Below, piece after piece: positions 47,764 through 59,151 of a stretch of 64,000 nt of DNA. The notes below the pieces were generated by a model. The model was not told where the DNA came from, ran no database searches, and saw only the letters and a program-made list of their open reading frames with translations. Origin of the DNA: Hymenobacter sp. YIM 151500-1. GTDB taxonomy: Bacteria; Bacteroidota; Bacteroidia; Cytophagales; Hymenobacteraceae. The stretch spans positions 2,867,501 through 2,931,500 of the forward strand of contig NZ_CP110139.1 in NCBI RefSeq assembly GCF_025979885.1, written 5' to 3'. The stretch's first letter is position 1. Each line of letters begins with the position of its first letter. The position numbers and the translations under genes were made by a program.

Positions 47764-48405
47764 CTACCTCTTATCCCACGGCATAGGCACGCGGCTCTCG
47801 GTGCCAGCCCGCAGCCGCCCAATATTAGCGCGGTGGGTGTAGATGAGCAGGCCGGCCAGCACGAAGCCAAACCACACCAGTAGCTGATTCTGCGGCCGAA
47901 ACTGGGGCAACAGTTGCAGCAGGGCAAAGGCCACTCCGGCCGTCATGCTACTCAGGGACACGTAGCGCGACAGGAGCAGCACGGTGATAAACACCAGAAT
48001 GCACACGCCCACGGTGGCCGGGGCAATAGCCAGCATCATGCCCAGCACCGTAGCCACGCCCTTGCCCCCGCGGAACCCCGCCCAGATGGGGTAAATGTGC
48101 CCCACCACGGCCAAAATGCCGCAAGCCAGCTGGAAGTACAAAAGCTGCTCCGGCACAATAGCGCCCTGGTTTAGCATGACCGTGGCCAACGACGTAGCCA
48201 CCCAGCCCTTGAGCACATCCACGGCCATGACGAAGGAGCCCGGCCGCTTGCCCAGCACCCGGAAGGTGTTGGTGGCGCCAGCGTTGCCGGAACCATGCTC
48301 CCGAATGTCGAGCCCGAAAAACCAGCGCCCCACCCACAGGGCCGTCGGAATGGAGCCAATGAGGTAGGCGGCCACCAGCAGGCCAAAAACAAGGGGTAGG
48401 TTCAT
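47764..48405 (-). CDS. plsY: acyl-phosphate:glycerol-3-phosphate acyltransferase PlsY
   Basis: A 213-residue membrane enzyme that puts the first acyl chain on glycerol 3-phosphate in phospholipid synthesis, using acyl-phosphate. The three conserved loops are seen as GSIPTALWVGR, HGSGNAGATNTFRVLGK and FRGGKGVAT. It has about five membrane helices. The ATG at 48403-48405 gives the normal N-terminus. A -7-like box (TATCTTTA) lies near 48424. Confidence 0.95.
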   Translation of the reverse strand: MNLPLVFGLLVAAYLIGSIPTALWVGRWFFGLDIREHGSGNAGATNTFRVLGKRPGSFVMAVDVLKGWVATSLATVMLNQGAIVPEQLLYFQLACGILAVVGHIYPIWAGFRGGKGVATVLGMMLAIAPATVGVCILVFITVLLLSRYVSLSSMTAGVAFALLQLLPQFRPQNQLLVWFGFVLAGLLIYTHRANIGRLRAGTESRVPMPWDKR

Positions 48406-48429
48406 ATGGAGAAAAGTCGTTGGGCTAAA

Positions 48430-48662
48430 GATACAAGAGGTCAGATGGTGACTTGTCATTGCGAGGAGGCACGACGAAGCAATCCGTCCTGTTCAGGGCG
48501 CCAGCGGCCCAGGCTCTAACAAGCCCCTGCCGTGCGCCTCACCCCCCAGCCTCTTCTCCGGGGGAGAGCGGGAGCCAGTCGTCATTGTGTGGAAAGCCTC
48601 GATGGCATAAGGGTTAGCCCCGCGCCATCGGGGCCGGCGGCCGAGCCAGGCGTCATCTAATA
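48430..48662. repeat. modular repeat element upstream of plsY
   Basis: A relative of the 31746 element: TCAGATGGTGACTTGTCATTGCGAGG, then ACGAAGCAATCC, TTCTCCGGGGGAGAGCGGG and GTCGTCATTGTG as a reduced right arm. It looks partly decayed. The plsY promoter (near 48424) lies at its edge. The sequence to 48662 is GC-rich and has no gene. Confidence 0.6.
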
Positions 48663-48695
48663 CAAAGCCCCTGCCGCGTTATGCAGCAGGGGCTT
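48663..48695 (-). terminator. terminator of the giant secreted-protein gene
   Basis: The stem AAGCCCCTGC/GCAGGGGCTT lies 11 bases past the stop codon, followed on the minus strand by TTTGTATT. Confidence 0.8.
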
Positions 48696-48705
48696 CTCTA
48701 GGTTA

Positions 48706-51700
48706 CTAGTCGCCGAAGGGGTCGTCGGCTTCCTTCTTTTTCTTCTTCTTTTTGTCGTCGGCGGGAGGGGGAGCGGGGGCGTCGGCGGGCGGGGCGGCGT
48801 CGACGGCTTCCTCCTTCTTCTTTTTCTTTTTGCCGGTGTCTTCGGGAGGAGCCGGCTCGGTGGCGGCGGGAGTTGGGGCCGGGGCGGCTTCCGTGGCTTC
48901 GTCCTTTTTCTTCTTTTTCTTGGCGGGCTCCTCGGCGGGCGGGGCGGCGCCGGGCTCGGCTTGCAGGGCTTCGTCTACGGGGTCTTTCTTCTTCTTTTTC
49001 TTTTTGTTGCCCTCCTCCATGAAGTCGAAGCTGCCGCTGCTCACGGGCTGGGTGGTGTTGATTTTCTTCTTGCCGGTTTCCTTGAGGTAGTCCTTGCGGA
49101 AGTGGTTGAGGAAGGTTTGCACCTCCTGGTCGTCGCCGAGGAAGAAGCCGTACTCGGTGGCCGTGTTGTAGTCACCCTTGGCTTTCAGGCCCACAATTTC
49201 GTCGAAGGAGCCGTGCTGGGCCTTGGCCAGCATGGTGTTGTTTTGGTACTTGAGGTAGTACCAGGTCTGGGGCTCGGCTTCGAGGTAGATTTCCACGTTG
49301 TCGCCAGTGCTTTCCTTCTTGATTTCGATGTAGCCGTCAATCAGGGCGTTGATGTCTTTCTTGCCCACGCTCACCAACCCAATCTTGCCCACCGAGTACC
49401 AGGCCTTGAGCCGCTCGTCCCAACGCAGGTTCACCTGGCTCAGCACCAGCGTGTGGAGAAACTTGGCCGACAGCTTCTGCAACGATGCGTTGCCCTTGCG
49501 GGAGCTGTAGTCCTGCACGGCTTTGCTGCCCACAAACTCCCCTATCTTATACAGCTGGCCCTGGGAGGTGTTCAGGGCTTCGGGTAGGCCTTTGGCGTTG
49601 GTGGCCAGGTCCTGGCCCATGGCTTCCACGGCTTTTTCGGGCAGGTTGATGTCGATGTTCATAAACGCATCCAGCTCGTAGATGCCGCTGTCGGGCTTAG
49701 CGTAGCCCAGGCCCGAGGCGGCCAGGGCGTAGTCCTTGTTGGAGTTGATGAAGTTGAGCTTGCCGCGGAAATTCATGGCTCCGGTCGAGTCTTGCAGGGT
49801 CAGCACCGAGCCTTCGTACACGTCGGGGTCGGCGGGGTTGTGGCGGCTGATGGCGTAGATGCGCTTCTTCTGGTCGTAGCGCACTGAGCCGTCCACCTCA
49901 AACAGGTTGGCATCTGTCACGCCTGGCTTGGGCGCCACAAACAGCGGGTACACTTTGCCCGTGCCTTCCGACAAGAACAGACCCGACAGCATGGGCGTAC
50001 CGTCGTCAGACTTGGCGCCTTCCACCTTCACCCGGATGCTCTTGGGGTCGATGCTGTCCTGCACGGCAAACCATTCGGAGGCCGATTGGGCCTTCACAAA
50101 TTCCAGCCGGGCCTGGCCGTCAAACATAAATCCTTTGCGCTGGGAGTTCATCTGCACCCCGCCGCGGTAGGCAATGCGCGGGGCCAAATGGAACTTGTCG
50201 GTAGCCGCCAGGGTGGCCGTGGCCAGGGTGGGCGGCGACGGCAGGGGCTCCGGCTCGTCGGGCCCGCGCTTGAGCAGGCCCTTGCCATTGCCGTTCTTTC
50301 CGGCGTTGCGCCCCACCGAAGCCGTAGCCACCGCCGACGAATCGACCCGGAAGTTGGCAAACTTGATGGCGAACGAGTCGGCAGCGGCGTTTTTGTAGCT
50401 GTACAGGGCATTGCCGCTGAAGGCGTGGCGCGACAACACCTTGATTTCGCCCTTGTACAGGTTGTGGTACTTGTGCAGGGTGTCCATCACAATGCTGGCG
50501 TTCTGGAAGTCGCGCATCACGGCGTTGGGCAGGATGTACACCTTGTTGGAATCAGGCGTAATCCAGGCGTCGGCGGCGGCAATGCGGGGCACACCACCGG
50601 CCACTAGGCGGTAGCGGCTCAGGTCGTACTGCCCGCTGGCGGCCTGGAACTTCAGGCCGTTCTGCTCGGGCTTGGTACTATAGAAGAAGGAACGCGACGA
50701 GTCGGCGCCCGGCGCCACCTTGAACTGCACAATCTTCTTCTTGAAGTCCCACTTGCCCCCCGACAGTGTAGTGCGGTACTGGGAGTAAGGCAAGTCGATG
50801 CTGGACTTGGTGTCGCCTTCTTCGCGGGCAAACTCGGTGTTGCCGCCCTTCAGGTCGAAGGTGAAGTTTACGTTGTTGGCCGTCACGGCCGGCTTGTTCA
50901 CCTCCGCCGACTTGATGCTCAGCGTGGCCTTGCGGCCGGTGTAGCGCGTGGGCTTAAACTCGAAGGCCGTGGAACGGATAAACGACTGCGCCCCGTCCAT
51001 GCGGCCGTCGCCGTAGAGGCCGCCGGGCGTGTAGGTGAGCGTGCCTTTAAAGCCGTTGTTGAGGTCGTACATGCGGAAGGCCTCGCCGTTAGGCTGAGTG
51101 GTCAGGTACATCGAGTCCTGCTTTACGGCCCACTTCATCTGGTAGCCCGGCAGGAAGGTGACCTTGGCAAACTCCGTCCCGTTGAGCGGGCCCGGCGAAA
51201 TGGTGGCCGTCTTGCCCACCGTCACCACCGAGTCGCGGTAGAAGATAAACTGCTCACTGTTGAAGTCGCCGGTCAGGTACTTCACGTTGCCGATGCCCTG
51301 AATACCGCGGTTGCTCATGGCCACCTTGTTGTGGAGCCGGCCCTTGCCTCCGTACAGCGGGAAGCCCTCCTTCGGAATATTGTACACGAAGCCCAGGGAC
51401 CCGTCGTCCTGCATAGACAGCTTGGTGTTAAAGTTGGGCATGATGCCCCCGCTCACGAACGTGCCCTTGAAGCCCACGGCCGCCCGGTTTTTGTTGTTGA
51501 GCGAGTCGAGCTTGAAGGGCGGGATGTCGAAGAAGATGGTGGTGTCGTAGGCGCCGCCCAGGATTTCGGGCTTGTTGAAGAATACGTAGGCGCCGGTGGT
51601 GGCGTCGAAGGTGGGGTAGGCGCCCAGCTTCTTGCGGCCCGACTTGTTGTTGGGGTGGTTGATGTAGAGGCGGCCGGCCGAGTTCTTCTTTTTGTTGGTC

Positions 51701-53964
51701 AGGGTCCAGTCCACATCCTTGCGGGCCTTCATCACCGAGCCCTTCGAGCCCTTGCCCTTCACGATGATGGAGTCAATTTTCACCAGGTCGATGTAAAACC
51801 CGTCGTAGTCGAACTTGAACTCCTTGCCCTTGAACACGAAAGCCGAGGCCACCACGGTGCCGTTGAACAGCACCCCGCGGTTTTTCTGAATCCGAATCAC
51901 CGAGGAATCCGGCTTCACGAACACGGTCACGGAGTCGTCGGAAAAGTTGAAGCGGTCCACGCCCCGCACAATCAGGTCGTTGGTGGTCAGGTCGAGCGTG
52001 GCGTTGCGGCCCGAGGGTGAGAGGCTCTTGATGGCAATATGGTCGTAGTCCTTTTTGCCGCGCGAGGAGTTGACGTAGTGCAAAGCCTTGGGCAGCAGCA
52101 GAATCTGGTCGGTTTGCGGGTACCAGCCCACGTACCCGTCGCGGGCCAGGCCGGCCACGGCCGAGCGCACGTTGTCGGGCCGGAGCTTGCGGAAGGTGGC
52201 TACGTCCTGCACCGTAAACAGCTTGGTGTTGCCGTTTTCGAGGCTGTAGCCCACAATCATCTGCAAAGGGTGCAGCTTATTAATGGCCTTGATTTGCTGG
52301 TAGCGGGTGTTGGTGTAGAACTCCTTGCTCTCGAAGTTGGCCGTCACCTGGTTTTTGGCCGTGAGCATGGTCAGGTCGATGCTCGACGTGCGCAGGGGCC
52401 AGGTCAGCAGCTCCGTCGAAATCTCCATCTGGTGGTAGGAGTCGTAGTAGGGCGTGGTTTTGTAGAGGCCGCTTTCGCGGGCCAGCTGCAAGGTTTGCTG
52501 GGGCTTGGAGAACTTCAACCGCACGCCGGGATGGGTCAGCGAGTCCTGCTTGCCCTGGTAGATGGTCACGGCTGCGCGCTGGGCCGTAATTACGGAGTCG
52601 CCCAGCTCGTAGGCCCCCGATGCGGCCCGGAACTTGGGCTTGCCGTCTACGTCCACCAGAATCCGCGACAAGGATCCATCCAGCGAAGCCGACAACGTGC
52701 GCCCCCCGGCCAGCGAAAAGCCTCCGTAGTAGCGGATATTGTCGCCGATGTTCTTGACGCGGGCGTCGTTGGTGAGCGAGATAAAGCGCGGGTAGCCGGA
52801 GTCGGTGGCGCCGGGCTTTTTCTTCACGCTTTTGTACGACAGGGCGCCTTTGATGGGCGTTTCCAGCACGGCCGCGTAGGTCAGGGTCACGGGCTGGGCC
52901 GTGAATTCGGCTTTGCTGATGTCGAAGTCGTAGGTGGTGAGCTGGGCCGAGGCGGGGTTGCCCTTCACCTGCCAGGCAAACTCGCCGCCGTAGCCCACAA
53001 ACCGGCTGTGGGCCGGCACCACCGCCCCGCTGGTTTTGCGAATGTACACCGAGTCGGCCGGCGAGGCCATAAACAGGTCGGCATCCTTGATGAGCAGTAC
53101 CGGCCCGCGGGTGGGCGGGGCTACGTAGCTGTTGTAGAAGGGCGTGGGCTCGAAGGCCGGCGCGGGCGAAGCTTTGGCAGGCGTGCCGGCTTTAGCGGCC
53201 GGCGCGGTTTTCTTGGCCGTGCCACCCCAGCCATCATCGGCGCCCCAGTCGCCACCGCTCCACATGTCGGCCGTGTCCCAGCCGTCGGCGCTTTTCTTTT
53301 TAGGGGCTTTGCCGCTCTGCGACTTGGCATCGGCCGGGGCCGGGGCAGGCTGAGGCGCGGCGGGCGGCGCCATCGAGGGCATATCCGCAGCGTTGTAGGC
53401 GAAGCTGAACGTGCCGCCCACTACGCGCAGGGAGCTGTAGCGGGAGCGGTACAGGTAGCGGCTTTGCAGGAAGTTGGCCGAGTTGAACAGGAACTTCTCG
53501 GTGTCGGCTACGGGCTCCTTTTCCAGGGTCTTCGCCACCACGTCCAGGAACTCGGTCATCTGCTGGTCCGAGAAGCCTTCGGTGCCCGCCGCGGCCGTAA
53601 TGGCTGTGAAAAACAGCTCGAAGTGGGGCTTGGGCCGGAACTTGCGGGCCAGCATGTACTGGCTCAGGGCCACGATGTGGCGCTGGTTGGTGGCCGTGAG
53701 GCGGTTGCTGGCCCACACCTGCTGGAGCTTGGCCGCCGAGGCCTTAGCCCCGGCATTGTTGGTGCTGGCCATCATCGACTGCGCGTCCACCATAAACTGC
53801 TCGGGCTCTGAGCTGAGCTTGCCGGTAAACTTGGGCAGCACGGGCGCCGCCGGAGCCGCGCCGGCAGGCTGCTTGCCGGGGGGCGTCTTCGGCTGCTGCG
53901 CCCACACCGGCGTGCTCAAGCCCAACAGCACCGCACACACCCATTTCACTGTAGAGAGCTTCAT
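48706..53964 (-). CDS. very large secreted protein with C-terminal lysine tracts
   Basis: A 1752-residue protein with a signal peptide (MKLSTVKWVCAVLLGLSTPVWAQ). Residues about 45-190 are helical; 195-290 are low-complexity (Pro/Ala, then GGDWGADDGWGG). From about 300 to 1550 the chain is rich in alternating hydrophobic/polar strands with repeated themes (for example SVYIRKTSGAV, LLLPKALHYV, VYILPNAVM), suggesting an extended beta-solenoid or beta-sandwich array. The last 100 residues hold four lysine tracts of 6-7 (1654-1660, 1682-1687, 1712-1717, 1738-1744) separated by acidic Pro/Ala spacers, ending DDPFGD. No T9SS sorting domain or transmembrane helix is visible. I do not recognise the family; an envelope structural or lipid-transport role is only a guess. 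It stands alone with its own terminator. Confidence 0.8.
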   Translation of the reverse strand: MKLSTVKWVCAVLLGLSTPVWAQQPKTPPGKQPAGAAPAAPVLPKFTGKLSSEPEQFMVDAQSMMASTNNAGAKASAAKLQQVWASNRLTATNQRHIVALSQYMLARKFRPKPHFELFFTAITAAAGTEGFSDQQMTEFLDVVAKTLEKEPVADTEKFLFNSANFLQSRYLYRSRYSSLRVVGGTFSFAYNAADMPSMAPPAAPQPAPAPADAKSQSGKAPKKKSADGWDTADMWSGGDWGADDGWGGTAKKTAPAAKAGTPAKASPAPAFEPTPFYNSYVAPPTRGPVLLIKDADLFMASPADSVYIRKTSGAVVPAHSRFVGYGGEFAWQVKGNPASAQLTTYDFDISKAEFTAQPVTLTYAAVLETPIKGALSYKSVKKKPGATDSGYPRFISLTNDARVKNIGDNIRYYGGFSLAGGRTLSASLDGSLSRILVDVDGKPKFRAASGAYELGDSVITAQRAAVTIYQGKQDSLTHPGVRLKFSKPQQTLQLARESGLYKTTPYYDSYHQMEISTELLTWPLRTSSIDLTMLTAKNQVTANFESKEFYTNTRYQQIKAINKLHPLQMIVGYSLENGNTKLFTVQDVATFRKLRPDNVRSAVAGLARDGYVGWYPQTDQILLLPKALHYVNSSRGKKDYDHIAIKSLSPSGRNATLDLTTNDLIVRGVDRFNFSDDSVTVFVKPDSSVIRIQKNRGVLFNGTVVASAFVFKGKEFKFDYDGFYIDLVKIDSIIVKGKGSKGSVMKARKDVDWTLTNKKKNSAGRLYINHPNNKSGRKKLGAYPTFDATTGAYVFFNKPEILGGAYDTTIFFDIPPFKLDSLNNKNRAAVGFKGTFVSGGIMPNFNTKLSMQDDGSLGFVYNIPKEGFPLYGGKGRLHNKVAMSNRGIQGIGNVKYLTGDFNSEQFIFYRDSVVTVGKTATISPGPLNGTEFAKVTFLPGYQMKWAVKQDSMYLTTQPNGEAFRMYDLNNGFKGTLTYTPGGLYGDGRMDGAQSFIRSTAFEFKPTRYTGRKATLSIKSAEVNKPAVTANNVNFTFDLKGGNTEFAREEGDTKSSIDLPYSQYRTTLSGGKWDFKKKIVQFKVAPGADSSRSFFYSTKPEQNGLKFQAASGQYDLSRYRLVAGGVPRIAAADAWITPDSNKVYILPNAVMRDFQNASIVMDTLHKYHNLYKGEIKVLSRHAFSGNALYSYKNAAADSFAIKFANFRVDSSAVATASVGRNAGKNGNGKGLLKRGPDEPEPLPSPPTLATATLAATDKFHLAPRIAYRGGVQMNSQRKGFMFDGQARLEFVKAQSASEWFAVQDSIDPKSIRVKVEGAKSDDGTPMLSGLFLSEGTGKVYPLFVAPKPGVTDANLFEVDGSVRYDQKKRIYAISRHNPADPDVYEGSVLTLQDSTGAMNFRGKLNFINSNKDYALAASGLGYAKPDSGIYELDAFMNIDINLPEKAVEAMGQDLATNAKGLPEALNTSQGQLYKIGEFVGSKAVQDYSSRKGNASLQKLSAKFLHTLVLSQVNLRWDERLKAWYSVGKIGLVSVGKKDINALIDGYIEIKKESTGDNVEIYLEAEPQTWYYLKYQNNTMLAKAQHGSFDEIVGLKAKGDYNTATEYGFFLGDDQEVQTFLNHFRKDYLKETGKKKINTTQPVSSGSFDFMEEGNKKKKKKKDPVDEALQAEPGAAPPAEEPAKKKKKKDEATEAAPAPTPAATEPAPPEDTGKKKKKKEEAVDAAPPADAPAPPPADDKKKKKKKEADDPFGD

Positions 53965-54153
53965 ATTCTGGTACTTCAGCGTCAATTCTGATTAATGGCC
54001 TACAATTTCAGGAAAAGCCAGCACTTTCCGGAGGCTTGTGGCCTGAGCCTCAGCACAATTATAGTCCAGCTTTTAATCGTTCAATTCCGGTCTTTCCCGA
54101 GGGCAGCCGGCAGCCGCTCAACGTCCGTACCGGCCGAGCTGGTATACCACTGG
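53965..54153. other. intergenic region upstream of the giant protein gene
   Basis: About 190 bases that must contain its promoter on the minus strand. No clear TAnnTTTG box could be read. No gene is seen. Confidence 0.4.
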
Positions 54154-54245
54154 AAAGCTGCCAGCTATAAGCCGCAAGCGGCAAGCTCTGTTCTAACAAC
54201 ATCTAGAACAGAGCTTGCCGCTTGCGGCTTGTAGCTGGCAGCTTT
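54154..54245. repeat. 41-bp inverted repeat between divergent-facing gene ends
   Basis: The arms (54154-54194 and 54205-54245; core GCCGCAAGCGGCAAGCTCTG) pair with one mismatch that G-U can accommodate, around a 10-base loop. It lies ten bases beyond the prmA stop. A reduced copy lies at 56951-57019. Confidence 0.85.
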
Positions 54246-54254
54246 ACCAGGGGC

Positions 54255-55085
54255 CTACTTCCGGAATACCGCCGATACCCAGTGGTTCTGGGTCAGGTGG
54301 CTTTCGTAGCGGAAGCCGGCCTGCTCGGCGGCCTGGCGGATGAGGGGCAGGTCGTCTTCGTAGAAACCGGAAAACAGGATGGGGCCGCCGGGCCGCAGGT
54401 AGCGGGCGTAGGCGGGCATGTCGTCCAGGAGCACGTTGCGGTTGATGTTGGCCAGGATAAGGTCGAAGGGCTCCTCCCCTTCCAGGGCGGTTACGTCGCC
54501 GAGGCGGGCTTCCACGCGGTCCTGCACGTGGTTTTCCTGGGCGTTATCGGCGGCGTTTTCGGCGGTCCAGGGCTCCACGTCCACGGCCAGCACGGAGCGG
54601 GCCCCCAGCTGCACGGCCATAATGGCCAAAATGCCCGTGCCGCAGCCCATGTCGAGCACCCGCTTGCCCTGGTGGTCGAGACCGAGCTGGTTGGTAATCA
54701 TCAGGGCCGTGGTGTCGTGGTGGCCGGTGCCGAAGGACATGCGCGGCATAATCACGATGTCGTGGGGCAAGTCGGGCCGGGCCTCGTGGAAGGGCGCCCG
54801 CACCGATACTTTATCGGCAATAACCAGGGGCTGGAAGTTCTTCTCCCACTCGGCGTTCCAGTTCTGGCGCGTAATGGTGCGGTGGCCGTATTCTAGCTCG
54901 CCCAGGCCTTCGTAGCGGCTCATAACCTCGGCCACGTTGTCGGGCGAGAACTGGTCTTCGTCGATGTAGGCGCAGAAGCCCTCGTCGTTGTCTTCAAAGG
55001 TGTTGAAGCCAACCTCGGCCAGCTCGGCCACCAGAATGTCGGCCAGCTCGCGCGGGGCTTGCACGCGCAGTTCAATATAATCCAT
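54255..55085 (-). CDS. prmA: ribosomal protein L11 methyltransferase PrmA
   Basis: A 276-residue SAM-dependent enzyme that methylates L11. It has an N-terminal substrate-binding domain (about 1-70), the SAM motif RVLDMGCGTGILAI and the catalytic-side motif DLILANINRNVL. The phrase MPRMSFGTGHHDTTALM is characteristic of PrmA. The ATG at 55083-55085 (MDYIELRVQAP) is the family start; an extension to 55184 is rejected. Confidence 0.93.
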   Translation of the reverse strand: MDYIELRVQAPRELADILVAELAEVGFNTFEDNDEGFCAYIDEDQFSPDNVAEVMSRYEGLGELEYGHRTITRQNWNAEWEKNFQPLVIADKVSVRAPFHEARPDLPHDIVIMPRMSFGTGHHDTTALMITNQLGLDHQGKRVLDMGCGTGILAIMAVQLGARSVLAVDVEPWTAENAADNAQENHVQDRVEARLGDVTALEGEEPFDLILANINRNVLLDDMPAYARYLRPGGPILFSGFYEDDLPLIRQAAEQAGFRYESHLTQNHWVSAVFRK

Positions 55086-55291
55086 GGGTAGCAGCAGTTG
55101 AGTCCGGGGCCCGTGGACACGTCCCCGGTTCGGGCGGCAAGTTCGGACGAAAAAGCCAGCCCGCCGCATTCCGCGCCCCGCCACTCAGGTAGGACCGCGC
55201 CGCCTTGCCTTGCAAAGCCGCAGGGGCCGGGGCTTAGATTAGCTGAACAGTATTGGGGGATTTGTGCATCAGACACTTAACTTACCGGCCT
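55086..55291. other. divergent promoter region between prmA and the S8 protease gene
   Basis: About 206 GC-rich bases with both promoters. No exact -7 box was found for either direction. No gene is seen. Confidence 0.4.
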
Positions 55292-56941
55292 ATGAAGCAC
55301 CTGCTACCCCTGCTCACCCTGCTGGCCCTGGCGGAACCGGCTGCCTCGCTGGCCCAGCAACCGGCGCCGCGCCTGCTGGTGCGCCTCGCCGACAGCCCGC
55401 GGACCGCCCAGGCCCAGGAGAACAATCAGGCCCACTCTACACTATGGGCTTTCGAGCAGCTGAATCGCCGCTACGGAGCCGTGCGGACCGAGGCGCTGAA
55501 CCCCAGCCCTTCGCCGAGTAGTTCTGCCGCCACCGCCGGGGTGCCGGCCGTGTACGTAGTGACGCTGCCCGCCGGCACCGATGCCGGGCAGGTGCGGGCG
55601 GCGTACCAGCAGAGCGGCTTGTTTCGCTACGTAGAGCTGGACGCGGCCGGGCGGGGCGGCGGCCAGCAGGGCCTGGCCCCGAACGATGCCCTCTACGGCC
55701 GGCAATGGAGCCTGAACAATACGGGGAGTTTCAGCCTGTCGTCGGCCAGGCCGGGGGCCGATATGAAGATGGAAGACGGCTGGGCCATCACCCAGGGCGA
55801 CGCCTCCGTGACGGTGGCCATCATCGACAGCGGCTGCAAGCTCGACCACCCCGAGTTCAGCGGCCGCCTCTGGCGCAACGCCCGCGAAATTCCCGCCAAC
55901 AACCTCGACGACGACCAGAACGGCTACGTGGATGACATCAACGGCTGGAGCTTCGTGGACGAAACCGCCAACCTGACCGACGACGTGGGGCACGGCACCA
56001 ATGTCACCGGCATTATCGGCGCTTCGGGCAACAACTCGGTGGGCTACGCCGGCGTGAACTGGGGCTGTAAGCTGATGACCTGCAAGGCCCTCGATGATAA
56101 AAACAACGGCTTTTATTCCTGGTGGATCAAGGCCATCTACTACGCCGTCAACAACGGGGCTAGGGTTATCAATATGTCCTTAGGCGGCACCAGTTCCTCG
56201 CAGGCCATGCAAGACGCCGTGGACTATGCCACCCAGCGCGGTGTGGTGGTAGTGGCCTGCATGATGAATGCCAACAGCAGCACGGTGTACTACCCGGCGG
56301 GCCTGACGGGCGTCATAGCCGTGGGCTCCACCAACCCCGATGATACGCGGAGCAGCCCGTTTTTCTGGAATGCCAGCAGCGGCAGCAGCTTCGGGCCTCA
56401 CGTGTCGGTGGTGGCGCCCGGCAACTACATCTACGGCCTGCATCACCGCTCCGACAACAACTACAACACCTATTGGGGTGGCACGTCGCAGGCCGCGCCG
56501 CACGTGGCGGGCCTGGCCTCGCTGCTGCTCACGCTGAAGCCCCAGCTCACGCCGGCCCAGGTGAAAACCACCCTGCAATCCACGGCCGACGACCTGGTGG
56601 GCAACCCCGCGGAAGACACGCCGGGCTGGGACCAATACTACGGACACGGCCGCATCAATGCTGCCCGTGCCCTTTCCTTCGTGGTTACCAGCAGCAGCCA
56701 GGCCAGCCGGCTGCCCCAGGCCGCCCTGGATGTATTCCCCAACCCGGCCCGCCACCAGCTCACCCTGCGCACCTCCGATGCACGCCTGCTTAACCAGCAG
56801 GTGCAGATTTTCAACAGCGTAGGCCAGCTGGTGTATCACCAGGCCTTGACCAGCCTCTCCATGCAGGTGCCGCTTACTTTGGCGCCCGGCGTGTACCGCG
56901 TGAGCCTGGCCGGCACCGGCCGTACGCTGGTGGTTGAGTAA
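55292..56941 (+). CDS. S8 subtilisin-like peptidase with T9SS sorting domain
   Basis: A 549-residue exported protease (signal about 1-21). An inhibitor-like prodomain region (about 25-120) precedes the catalytic domain with Asp179 (AIIDSGCKLDHPEF), His234 (GHGTNVTGI) and Ser399 (WGGTSQAAPHVAG). Residues about 475-549 (LDVFPNPARHQLTLR ... LAPGVYRVSLAG) are a type IX secretion sorting domain. It probably acts as a secreted digestive or processing protease. Catalytic residues are all present. Confidence 0.93.
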   Translation: MKHLLPLLTLLALAEPAASLAQQPAPRLLVRLADSPRTAQAQENNQAHSTLWAFEQLNRRYGAVRTEALNPSPSPSSSAATAGVPAVYVVTLPAGTDAGQVRAAYQQSGLFRYVELDAAGRGGGQQGLAPNDALYGRQWSLNNTGSFSLSSARPGADMKMEDGWAITQGDASVTVAIIDSGCKLDHPEFSGRLWRNAREIPANNLDDDQNGYVDDINGWSFVDETANLTDDVGHGTNVTGIIGASGNNSVGYAGVNWGCKLMTCKALDDKNNGFYSWWIKAIYYAVNNGARVINMSLGGTSSSQAMQDAVDYATQRGVVVVACMMNANSSTVYYPAGLTGVIAVGSTNPDDTRSSPFFWNASSGSSFGPHVSVVAPGNYIYGLHHRSDNNYNTYWGGTSQAAPHVAGLASLLLTLKPQLTPAQVKTTLQSTADDLVGNPAEDTPGWDQYYGHGRINAARALSFVVTSSSQASRLPQAALDVFPNPARHQLTLRTSDARLLNQQVQIFNSVGQLVYHQALTSLSMQVPLTLAPGVYRVSLAGTGRTLVVE

Positions 56942-56950
56942 TGGCGGTCA

Positions 56951-57022
56951 GCGGCAAGCTATACGCTGTAAGTGGCAAGCCCTGTCCTGGATATCGTCAG
57001 AACAGAGCTTGCCGCTTACTCA
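56951..57022. repeat. reduced copy of the GCCGCAAGCGGCAAGCTCTG repeat
   Basis: GTAAGTGGCAAGCCCTGT (56968-56985) faces the complement of TAAGCGGCAAGCTCTGTTCT (about 56999-57018). The right arm touches the stop codon of the DUF5687-like gene (57020-57022), and the left lies just after the S8 protease stop. Confidence 0.7.
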
Positions 57023-58411
57023 CATACTCTGGAGGCGGTGGTGGAGCTGGCGGCGCTGGGGGCCGTGGTTGCTGAGGAGGCGCCGCACCGGCACCACGGC
57101 CGTGAGCATGATGCTGACGGCCAGCCCGGCCCGCACCCACCACCACGGCATAAAATACAGCGTTGCAGCTGTGGCCAGGGTCAGGATGTTCATGAGCGTA
57201 GAGGCATTGTTGCGCATGTTCATCAGGTCGAGGTTTTTGTACACGGGCTTGGCTTTGGAGAGGCTACCCCACAGGCCCAGGGCCAGGAATACGCCGGCGC
57301 TCAAGGGCAGCAGCCCCAGTAGCGGCCAGGTTGAGGCCGGAAACAACGCCACCAGCAGCACTGCCGACAGCAGACAGTCGAGCAACAGCACGGGCACGGC
57401 CAGCCTGAGGTAGAGCACCAGTAGGCGGGATGTCAGGCCCAGGCGCTGCAACTCGTTCAAGGTCAGCGAATAGAGGTAGCCGTAAAGGTTGTTGTTGGCA
57501 TAGGTGAAGCTAATAACCGGCAGAAAAACGAGGTAGAAGATAGACCTGCTAGAGTCGGAGCCGTGCTTGGCCTGCATCACGCTGCTTGCTACCAGCAGAA
57601 ACACCTTAAACGCCAGCCCCATGCTGAGCGCGGGCCAGGTTTTGCGCAAGTAGGCTTTCCACTCCGGCGAGAGGCGGGCCAGCCATTGGCTTTCGGCCGT
57701 ATCGAGGGCGGGGCGCACCAGGTTGCGGTTGAGAAACTGCGGCCCCAGCCCAGCTACCTGCCCCGCCAGCAGCCCCAGCGGCAGCAGGGCCACCAGCCAC
57801 GGCAGCCCAGCAGCCAGCGGCCCGGTCAAGCTCTTGGTTGCTGCCAGCGTCAGCCAAGCCCCGGCCAGGGCCAGCACGGCTGCGTAGGCTGCTACGAGTG
57901 GGTGGCGCCGGCCCCGGCCCCAGGTCAGCAGCCAGCGCAGCCCAAAGCTCAGGGCCGTGGCACCTAGTAGCAGCGCCACCCCCAGCAAGGCCACCCGCTG
58001 CTGCCCCGGCACGCACGCCAGCGCCGCCAGAAATACCCCCAACAGCAAGCGCCGCAGCGAAATCAGGTCGAGCAGAAACGCCAGCTCCGCGCTGCGCCGC
58101 CCCGACACCGGAAAGTGGTCGGGCAGCAGGCGCTGCACGGGCCGGTAGCTGGGCACGAAGTCAACCAGCAGCGTGCTCGTAAACACCGTACCGTACAGGC
58201 CCAGCAAGAAGTTTGCCCTGAGCGTAGCCGACAAGTCGTGGTTGCCGAGCATGTGCCCGAAGCCCAACCCGTATACAACGGCCAGAAGGCCCAGCAAAAC
58301 CAGTATAGCCCGTTTGCCGATTTCGGGCGGCCAGGCCCCGGCCCGCAGGTGGCGGCCCAGCAGATAGGGCACGTAGTGGCCTAGCGTTCCGGGGCGGTGC
58401 TGGTCAGCCAT
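57020..58411 (-). CDS. ABC transporter membrane protein, DUF5687-like
   Basis: A 463-residue integral membrane protein with about ten to twelve hydrophobic segments. The charged N-terminus and the loop AESQWLARLSPEWKAYLRKTW look like the Bacteroidota DUF5687 family, but I rate this as probable rather than sure. Its start overlaps the last 31 bases of the ATPase gene, so the two are translationally coupled and should form one transporter. The substrate is unknown. Confidence 0.75.
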   Translation of the reverse strand: MADQHRPGTLGHYVPYLLGRHLRAGAWPPEIGKRAILVLLGLLAVVYGLGFGHMLGNHDLSATLRANFLLGLYGTVFTSTLLVDFVPSYRPVQRLLPDHFPVSGRRSAELAFLLDLISLRRLLLGVFLAALACVPGQQRVALLGVALLLGATALSFGLRWLLTWGRGRRHPLVAAYAAVLALAGAWLTLAATKSLTGPLAAGLPWLVALLPLGLLAGQVAGLGPQFLNRNLVRPALDTAESQWLARLSPEWKAYLRKTWPALSMGLAFKVFLLVASSVMQAKHGSDSSRSIFYLVFLPVISFTYANNNLYGYLYSLTLNELQRLGLTSRLLVLYLRLAVPVLLLDCLLSAVLLVALFPASTWPLLGLLPLSAGVFLALGLWGSLSKAKPVYKNLDLMNMRNNASTLMNILTLATAATLYFMPWWWVRAGLAVSIMLTAVVPVRRLLSNHGPQRRQLHHRLQSM

Positions 58412-59151
58412 GTCAAGTCTTGGGTTGAAGTGGTGACCGGGTGCAGCAGCTGGAGCAAGGCCTCGGAGAGGTAGGCGTCGCGGCCCTGCCGGAACTCCGC
58501 CAGCGGGCCCCAAAACTTCACGTCACCTTCATCAATGATAAGCAAGTGGGTAGCCAGCTGCTCGATGTGGGTCAGGTTGTGCGACGACACAAACGTGAGG
58601 GCCTGGCTGCGGTAGCTGCTGAGTAGCTCCAGCAGGCGGCTGGCCGCAAACACGTCGAGGCCGTTCAAGGGCTCATCGAGGATGAGCAGGTCGGGGCGGT
58701 GGAGCAGGCAAGAGGCCACGGCTACGCGCTGCTTCATGCCCGTGGAAAACGAGCTGAGCCGGCGGCGCTGCACCGTGTCGTAGTCTTCGAGCAGGTGGTT
58801 GAGCAGGCTGCCAATGCGGTGGGCCGCGTCGGGCAGGTCGTAGATGCGGGCCACGAACTGCAAATACTCCTCGGCCGTGAGCTGCTCCACGAGGTGGCCT
58901 TGGTTGATGAGGGCGCCCATGCGCCGCTTCAGGGCCACCGGAAACGTTTCGCCCTGCACTTCCCCATCCAGCACAATCTGCCCGCTGCTGGGCAGCAGCA
59001 CATTGGTGAGCAGGTTGAACAAGGTGCTCTTGCCGGCCCCGTTGCGGCCCAATACGCCTACGCACATGCCGGGCTCCGCGTGCAGCGTTACGTCGCGCAG
59101 AATGGTTTTCGGGCCGAATGACTTGGTTAGCTGCCGTAGCTCTACGTGCAT
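58381..59151 (-). CDS. ABC transporter ATP-binding protein
   Basis: A 256-residue ATPase: Walker A LGRNGAGKST, Q-loop region INQGHLVEQL, signature SSFSTGMKQRV, Walker B LLILDEPLNG and switch SSHNLTHIEQ. It overlaps the membrane protein gene downstream. It belongs to the ABC-2-like exporter group by layout. A weak AT-rich region (TATATATA near 59162-59169) lies upstream and may be part of its promoter. Confidence 0.92.
   Translation of the reverse strand: MHVELRQLTKSFGPKTILRDVTLHAEPGMCVGVLGRNGAGKSTLFNLLTNVLLPSSGQIVLDGEVQGETFPVALKRRMGALINQGHLVEQLTAEEYLQFVARIYDLPDAAHRIGSLLNHLLEDYDTVQRRRLSSFSTGMKQRVAVASCLLHRPDLLILDEPLNGLDVFAASRLLELLSSYRSQALTFVSSHNLTHIEQLATHLLIIDEGDVKFWGPLAEFRQGRDAYLSEALLQLLHPVTTSTQDLTWLTSTAPER

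Follow-up and report, generated by a model that had tools for sequence, protein, structure and literature searches.

A 1752-residue exported Hymenobacter protein with predicted Lpt-like jellyroll units, a candidate lipid or LPS guide of the periplasm

We analyzed a 64,000-nucleotide stretch of the genome of Hymenobacter sp. YIM 151500-1 (hereafter the window), with a focus on a gene encoding a 1752-residue protein. The gene lies on the minus strand at 48706..53964, with its ATG at 53964 and its stop codon at 48706-48708, and is present as a single copy in the 4.9-Mb genome; a TTG at 53985 is a possible alternative start that would lengthen the frame. Its conserved upstream neighbor is prmA (54255..55184, minus strand), assigned by Pfam PF06325 and synteny, and its frequent downstream neighbor is plsY (47764..48459, minus strand), assigned by Pfam PF02660 and synteny. 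Directly past the stop codon, a 14-bp G+C-rich hairpin (48664..48696, minus strand; z −3.2) forms a probable terminator. This strong hairpin makes cotranscription with plsY unlikely, so that plsY is probably transcribed separately and the synteny with prmA and plsY may not imply a common function.

The intergenic region on the prmA side contains a near-perfect palindrome with arms of ~40 bp (window positions 54152-54247). Its RNA fold reaches −95.9 kcal/mol (z −16), and its matches within the window are its own two arms only; the palindrome is possibly a REP/MITE-type element or a strong terminator. Elsewhere in the window, positions 55253-56941 on the plus strand encode a subtilisin-like protease of family S8, whose T9SS type A sorting domain scores above the TIGR04183 cut-off, and positions 57020-58513 on the minus strand encode a hydrophobic 497-residue protein with no Pfam or NCBIfam match. 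The latter gene overlaps an ABC ATPase gene (58381-59151), and the two are a probable ABC permease pair that carries no name.

Residues 1-23 of the 1752-residue protein (53896..53964, minus strand, as for all features of the protein below) form a Sec-type signal peptide, which by inspection is of the ordinary cleavable type, with cleavage read as MKLSTVKWVCAVLLGLSTPVWA/QQ (VWA/QQ). The ...AxA/Q pattern recurs in nearly all orthologs, inspection found no lipobox cysteine in the signal peptide of the protein or of its orthologs, and the mature protein contains no cysteine at all. An N-terminal six-helix domain (residues 49-195; 53380..53820), with AlphaFold helices at 54-168 and a pLDDT of about 90, looks TPR-like by inspection only. 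It is followed by a disordered Pro/Ala linker (residues 196-280; 53125..53379; pLDDT <50) with acidic/Gly-Trp (DGW/DDW) motifs, at least two of which occur in 31/33 orthologs from the genus and in 12/24 others. The main beta body (residues 281-1200; 50365..53124) is the region most conserved across the order. Within it lie jellyroll unit A (residues 407-694; 51883..52746), which encloses a winged-helix domain (residues 551-638; 52051..52314), and jellyroll unit B (residues 957-1152; 50509..51096). A second disordered linker of low pLDDT and low conservation (residues 1201-1255; 50200..50364) leads into a C-terminal beta domain (residues 1256-1630; 49075..50199) that carries a helical insert and whose model resembles no known fold with confidence, and the chain ends in a polyampholytic tail (residues 1631-1752; 48709..49074) with DDPFGD as its last residues. 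Pfam and NCBIfam recognized no T9SS C-terminal sorting domain in the protein, and the one match among 26 relatives reached an E value of only 0.014. An initial annotation, made from the nucleotide sequence, had described a 1752-residue frame with a signal peptide, a beta-rich body, a Trp/Gly/Asp patch and no sorting domain. Each of these features is borne out, and we can add that the frame is on the minus strand, that the patch is the predicted disordered linker at about residues 196-280, and that two AlphaFold models agree on the beta-rich body.

That annotation was also right, at the level of sequence, in recognizing no family. The protein has no family match in Pfam or NCBIfam, protein and profile searches returned no meaningful sequence relatives in the PDB, and profile-based searches with its relatives gave no Pfam or NCBIfam family beyond weak HTH matches, in line with the winged-helix domain. 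Its named relatives are almost all from Hymenobacter, with at most 90% identity over a conserved 601-residue stretch, and no description of the protein was found in the open-access literature. Neither the protein nor its relatives match Pfam OstA, and we therefore refrain from assigning it to the LptA family. Profile alignment by hhalign with the OstA_2 protein of the same genome was not significant, nor was profile-profile comparison with the LptD_2 proteins of relatives, so that the argument for common ancestry with the Lpt proteins comes from the fold only.

The fold was predicted with two overlapping AlphaFold models built from 37 orthologs, covering residues 22-1215 (pLDDT 83, pTM 0.56) and 965-1640 (pLDDT 88, pTM 0.69). 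Foldseek returned LptD structures as the top PDB matches for both models (E 2.5e-5 and 1.3e-6, respectively), at low TM-scores, which means that the rigid alignment covers only part of each model. Unit B, also found by Foldseek, matched LptD by VIA with Z 14.5 over 171 residues at 3.5 Å in the first model, and the match was repeated with the second (Z 13.0, 142 residues, 2.8 Å). The same unit matched LptA (2r1a) with Z 11.3-11.8 over 120 residues at 2.9 Å in the two models, and LptC with Z 10.6 in the first. For unit A, the match to the LptD N-domain (5iv9) was weaker (VIA Z 8.5, 159 residues, 3.6 Å), while the inserted domain resembled Z-alpha (about 9) and MarR-type winged helices at VIA Z 7-9. 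Independently of these models, self-comparison of the profile by hhalign aligned residues 446-546 with 995-1096, 613-695 with 1071-1147, and 865-947 with 960-1038. The three alignments had probabilities of 94-96%, against 9% for reversed and 1% for column-shuffled controls, and the best scores, 61 and 51 for the first two pairs, compare with at most 24 and at most 17 in these controls. The first two pairs correspond to both structural jellyroll blocks, broken only by the winged helix. Self-comparison thus shows units A and B, at the profile level, to be internal repeats of each other, and the repeat structure stands on more than fold prediction. Overall, a predicted Lpt-like jellyroll fold is well supported for these two units. 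The initial suggestion of an LptA-like array accordingly holds at the level of the fold, where two repeated blocks match LptA/LptD jellyrolls; as to the array, structural comparison confirmed two units only, and at pTM values of 0.56 and 0.69 a continuous groove along the whole body would be hypothetical. The fold is known, whereas the architecture is without precedent in the resources searched, which offered no name, family or literature for it.

We next consider how widely the protein occurs. A profile of the central region detected orthologs, usually one per genome, in 241/291 genomes of the order, in 211/252 of its high-quality genomes and in 96 of its 115 genera; with the full protein as query, 57/59 relatives matched. 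Members lacking a copy include a family of reduced genomes (f21, 0.7-1.8 Mb) and incomplete MAGs. Four complete genomes of family f19 (genera g23 and g26) also have no detectable copy, and the protein is therefore not universally required. A search for a highly divergent copy next to prmA in genomes lacking the gene found none. Outside the order, orthologs were confined to a few genomes of the same class (families f26 and f28). At most loci, including those of the same-class outliers, prmA lies upstream, and plsY is often downstream. In one genome without the big gene (locus L223), prmA and plsY are directly adjacent, putatively an ancestral arrangement or an "empty site". In two genomes of the same genus as the window (G005 and G010; loci L084 and L085), the orthologous frame is in at least two pieces, either through assembly indels or through real decay.

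The Hymenobacter genome also encodes, elsewhere, an OstA_2 protein (PF13100) and a separate LptD_2 protein of 974 residues (PF19838). A search with PF04453 (LptD) found no match in these Bacteroidota, whose LptD is of the PF19838 type. With its own OstA_2 and LptD_2 present, the 1752-residue protein is an extra Lpt-fold protein. Genomes G057, G133, G168 and G065, which lack a copy, retain both OstA_2 and LptD_2. LptC, LptA and LptD hold LPS acyl chains between two beta-sheets and pass LPS along. Since the Lpt-fold members of known function carry LPS acyl chains, we favor a role as a jellyroll scaffold that guides a lipid or LPS in the periplasm, or as an accessory of the LPS route, specific to Cytophagales-type Bacteroidota; we put the probability of this reading at roughly one half (0.52), and infer the transport role itself from the fold. 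Counting against it are the lack of significant sequence homology to OstA_2 and LptD_2, the absence of a Pfam or NCBIfam match, the restriction of structural confirmation to two units, and the four complete f19 genomes with no detectable copy. On this lipid-guide model, the protein would be Sec-exported and soluble in the periplasm, its central 900 residues forming an extended series of LptA/LptD-type jellyroll units in one chain, with the rest of the body beyond units A and B presumably built likewise. Around this body would stand the helical N-terminal domain, the flexible linkers and the C-terminal beta domain. The jellyroll groove would hold the acyl chains of LPS or of another lipid. That lipid would be guided from membrane to membrane or toward the LptD translocon, along an accessory or a parallel route. 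To judge from its length, it is plausible that the protein spans the periplasm, and the 900-residue body could in principle do so as one chain. The winged helix, the acidic-Trp linker and the terminal acidic-G-F/W or DPFG motif may act as docking sites, the linker and end motifs being candidate docking motifs, and the lysine tail may be a flexible, fast-evolving extension. A bolder version, which we hold to be doubtful, is that the protein is a pre-fused single-chain LptA-type bridge, gated by the winged helix, through which LPS or some other envelope lipid travels outside the OstA/LptD pathway throughout the order. A one-chain, multi-unit Lpt jellyroll with a winged-helix insert, present in 96/115 sampled genera beside a full OstA/LptD set and unnamed in Pfam and NCBIfam, suggests an unrecognized component of envelope lipid transport in Bacteroidota.

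The main rival to a lipid guide, in our estimate unlikely though to be taken seriously, is a structural scaffold or assembly factor for outer-membrane machinery (LptD, T9SS or BAM), in which the jellyrolls would serve protein contacts and not lipid. LptA-type jellyrolls are known to join end to end via protein contacts, and the winged helix, the helical domain and the motif-bearing linkers of the 1752-residue protein resemble docking modules; the presence of a full OstA/LptD set alongside is in keeping with such a role. The known members of the fold, LptA, LptC and LptD, however, all bind LPS, which argues for lipid.

The lysine tail raises a different possibility. The four tracts reported in the initial annotation are present as K7 (48985..49005), K6 (48904..48921), K6 (48814..48831) and K7 (48733..48753), as seen by inspection of the codons and sequence. 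A whole-genome codon-run search found K6 runs at only three other sites in the 4.9 Mb, which argues that the tracts are not due to chance, and their mixed AAA/AAG codons speak against simple A-tract slippage as their source. One of the other sites lies in a gene that we take to resemble an HD-type hydrolase, the second in a doubtful ORF and the third in no clear ORF; inspection found no theme common to the three. It had been proposed that the tail binds polyanions such as LPS, nucleic acid or peptidoglycan, and as a core function this would be consistent with tracts that are non-random in the genome and with tails of 16-26% Lys across the genus (n = 33). We nevertheless consider it very improbable, and the proposal is not supported: acidic spacers offset the lysines and leave a near-neutral tail with a net charge of only +4, the genus-level tails range from −1 to +12, only 6/33 of these close orthologs carry four tracts of six or more lysines, and tails in other genera of the order are acidic (down to net −104), mixed, very short or absent. 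The tracts do extend beyond the strain, as had been required of a meaningful feature, albeit as a compositional trait of the genus. The C-terminal end motif is better kept, with DPF[G/A/T] in 33/33 sequences from the genus; of the 24 orthologs from outside it, 13 end in G-F or G-W, mostly preceded by acidic residues. Comparison of the orthologous sequences thus marks the lysine tracts as a variable, genus-level ornament and the body as the conserved part. The OstA_2 protein of the same genome (L185, C1:2373244-2373825) likewise ends in a basic Lys/Arg-Pro-Ala tail, and low-complexity basic tails may therefore be a habit of envelope proteins in Hymenobacter.

A divergent outer-membrane LptD-like protein, with periplasmic jellyrolls and a membrane barrel at residues 1256-1630, is as improbable as the polyanion-binding proposal: Foldseek columns align the whole of LptD, barrel included, and the C-terminal part contains beta strands and weakly matches some barrel proteins (Z 4-5.5), but the TM-score is only 0.2, the strands there are mostly short with a helical insert, the protein's relatives have no porin or LptD Pfam match, and a bona fide LptD_2 is already encoded in the genome.

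Finally, we compared the 1752-residue protein with known systems. Lpt-type jellyrolls usually occur as short LptA units, as membrane-anchored LptC or as the periplasmic domain of LptD. Like LptA/OstA (E. coli LptA; Bacteroidota OstA_2, PF13100), the protein is exported and has a beta-jellyroll that superposes on theirs (Z 11-12, 120 residues, 2.9 Å); unlike them, it lacks significant sequence homology to the family and combines at least two related units, a winged-helix insert, a helical domain and a long disordered tail in a single 1752-residue chain, and it coexists with the genome's own OstA_2. Structurally, nothing matches the protein better than the N-terminal domain of LptD (PF04453; LptD_2, PF19838; Z up to 14.5), yet LptD continues into a C-terminal 26-strand barrel, whereas the protein has no confident membrane barrel. 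Very long periplasmic beta proteins have been proposed as lipid conduits, namely YhdP/TamB/YdbH (PMC8912898) and, in Bacteroidota, TAM and TamL (PMC12045153). The 1752-residue protein resembles such AsmA-like/TamB bridge proteins in being very long, beta-rich and, by prediction, periplasmic. It differs from them in having by inspection a cleavable-type signal only, with no membrane anchor seen, and neither it nor its relatives match a TamB/AsmA Pfam profile. The VIA list contains no TamB/AsmA-type bridge protein, an absence that carries no evidential weight, and the top structural matches of the protein are Lpt jellyrolls.
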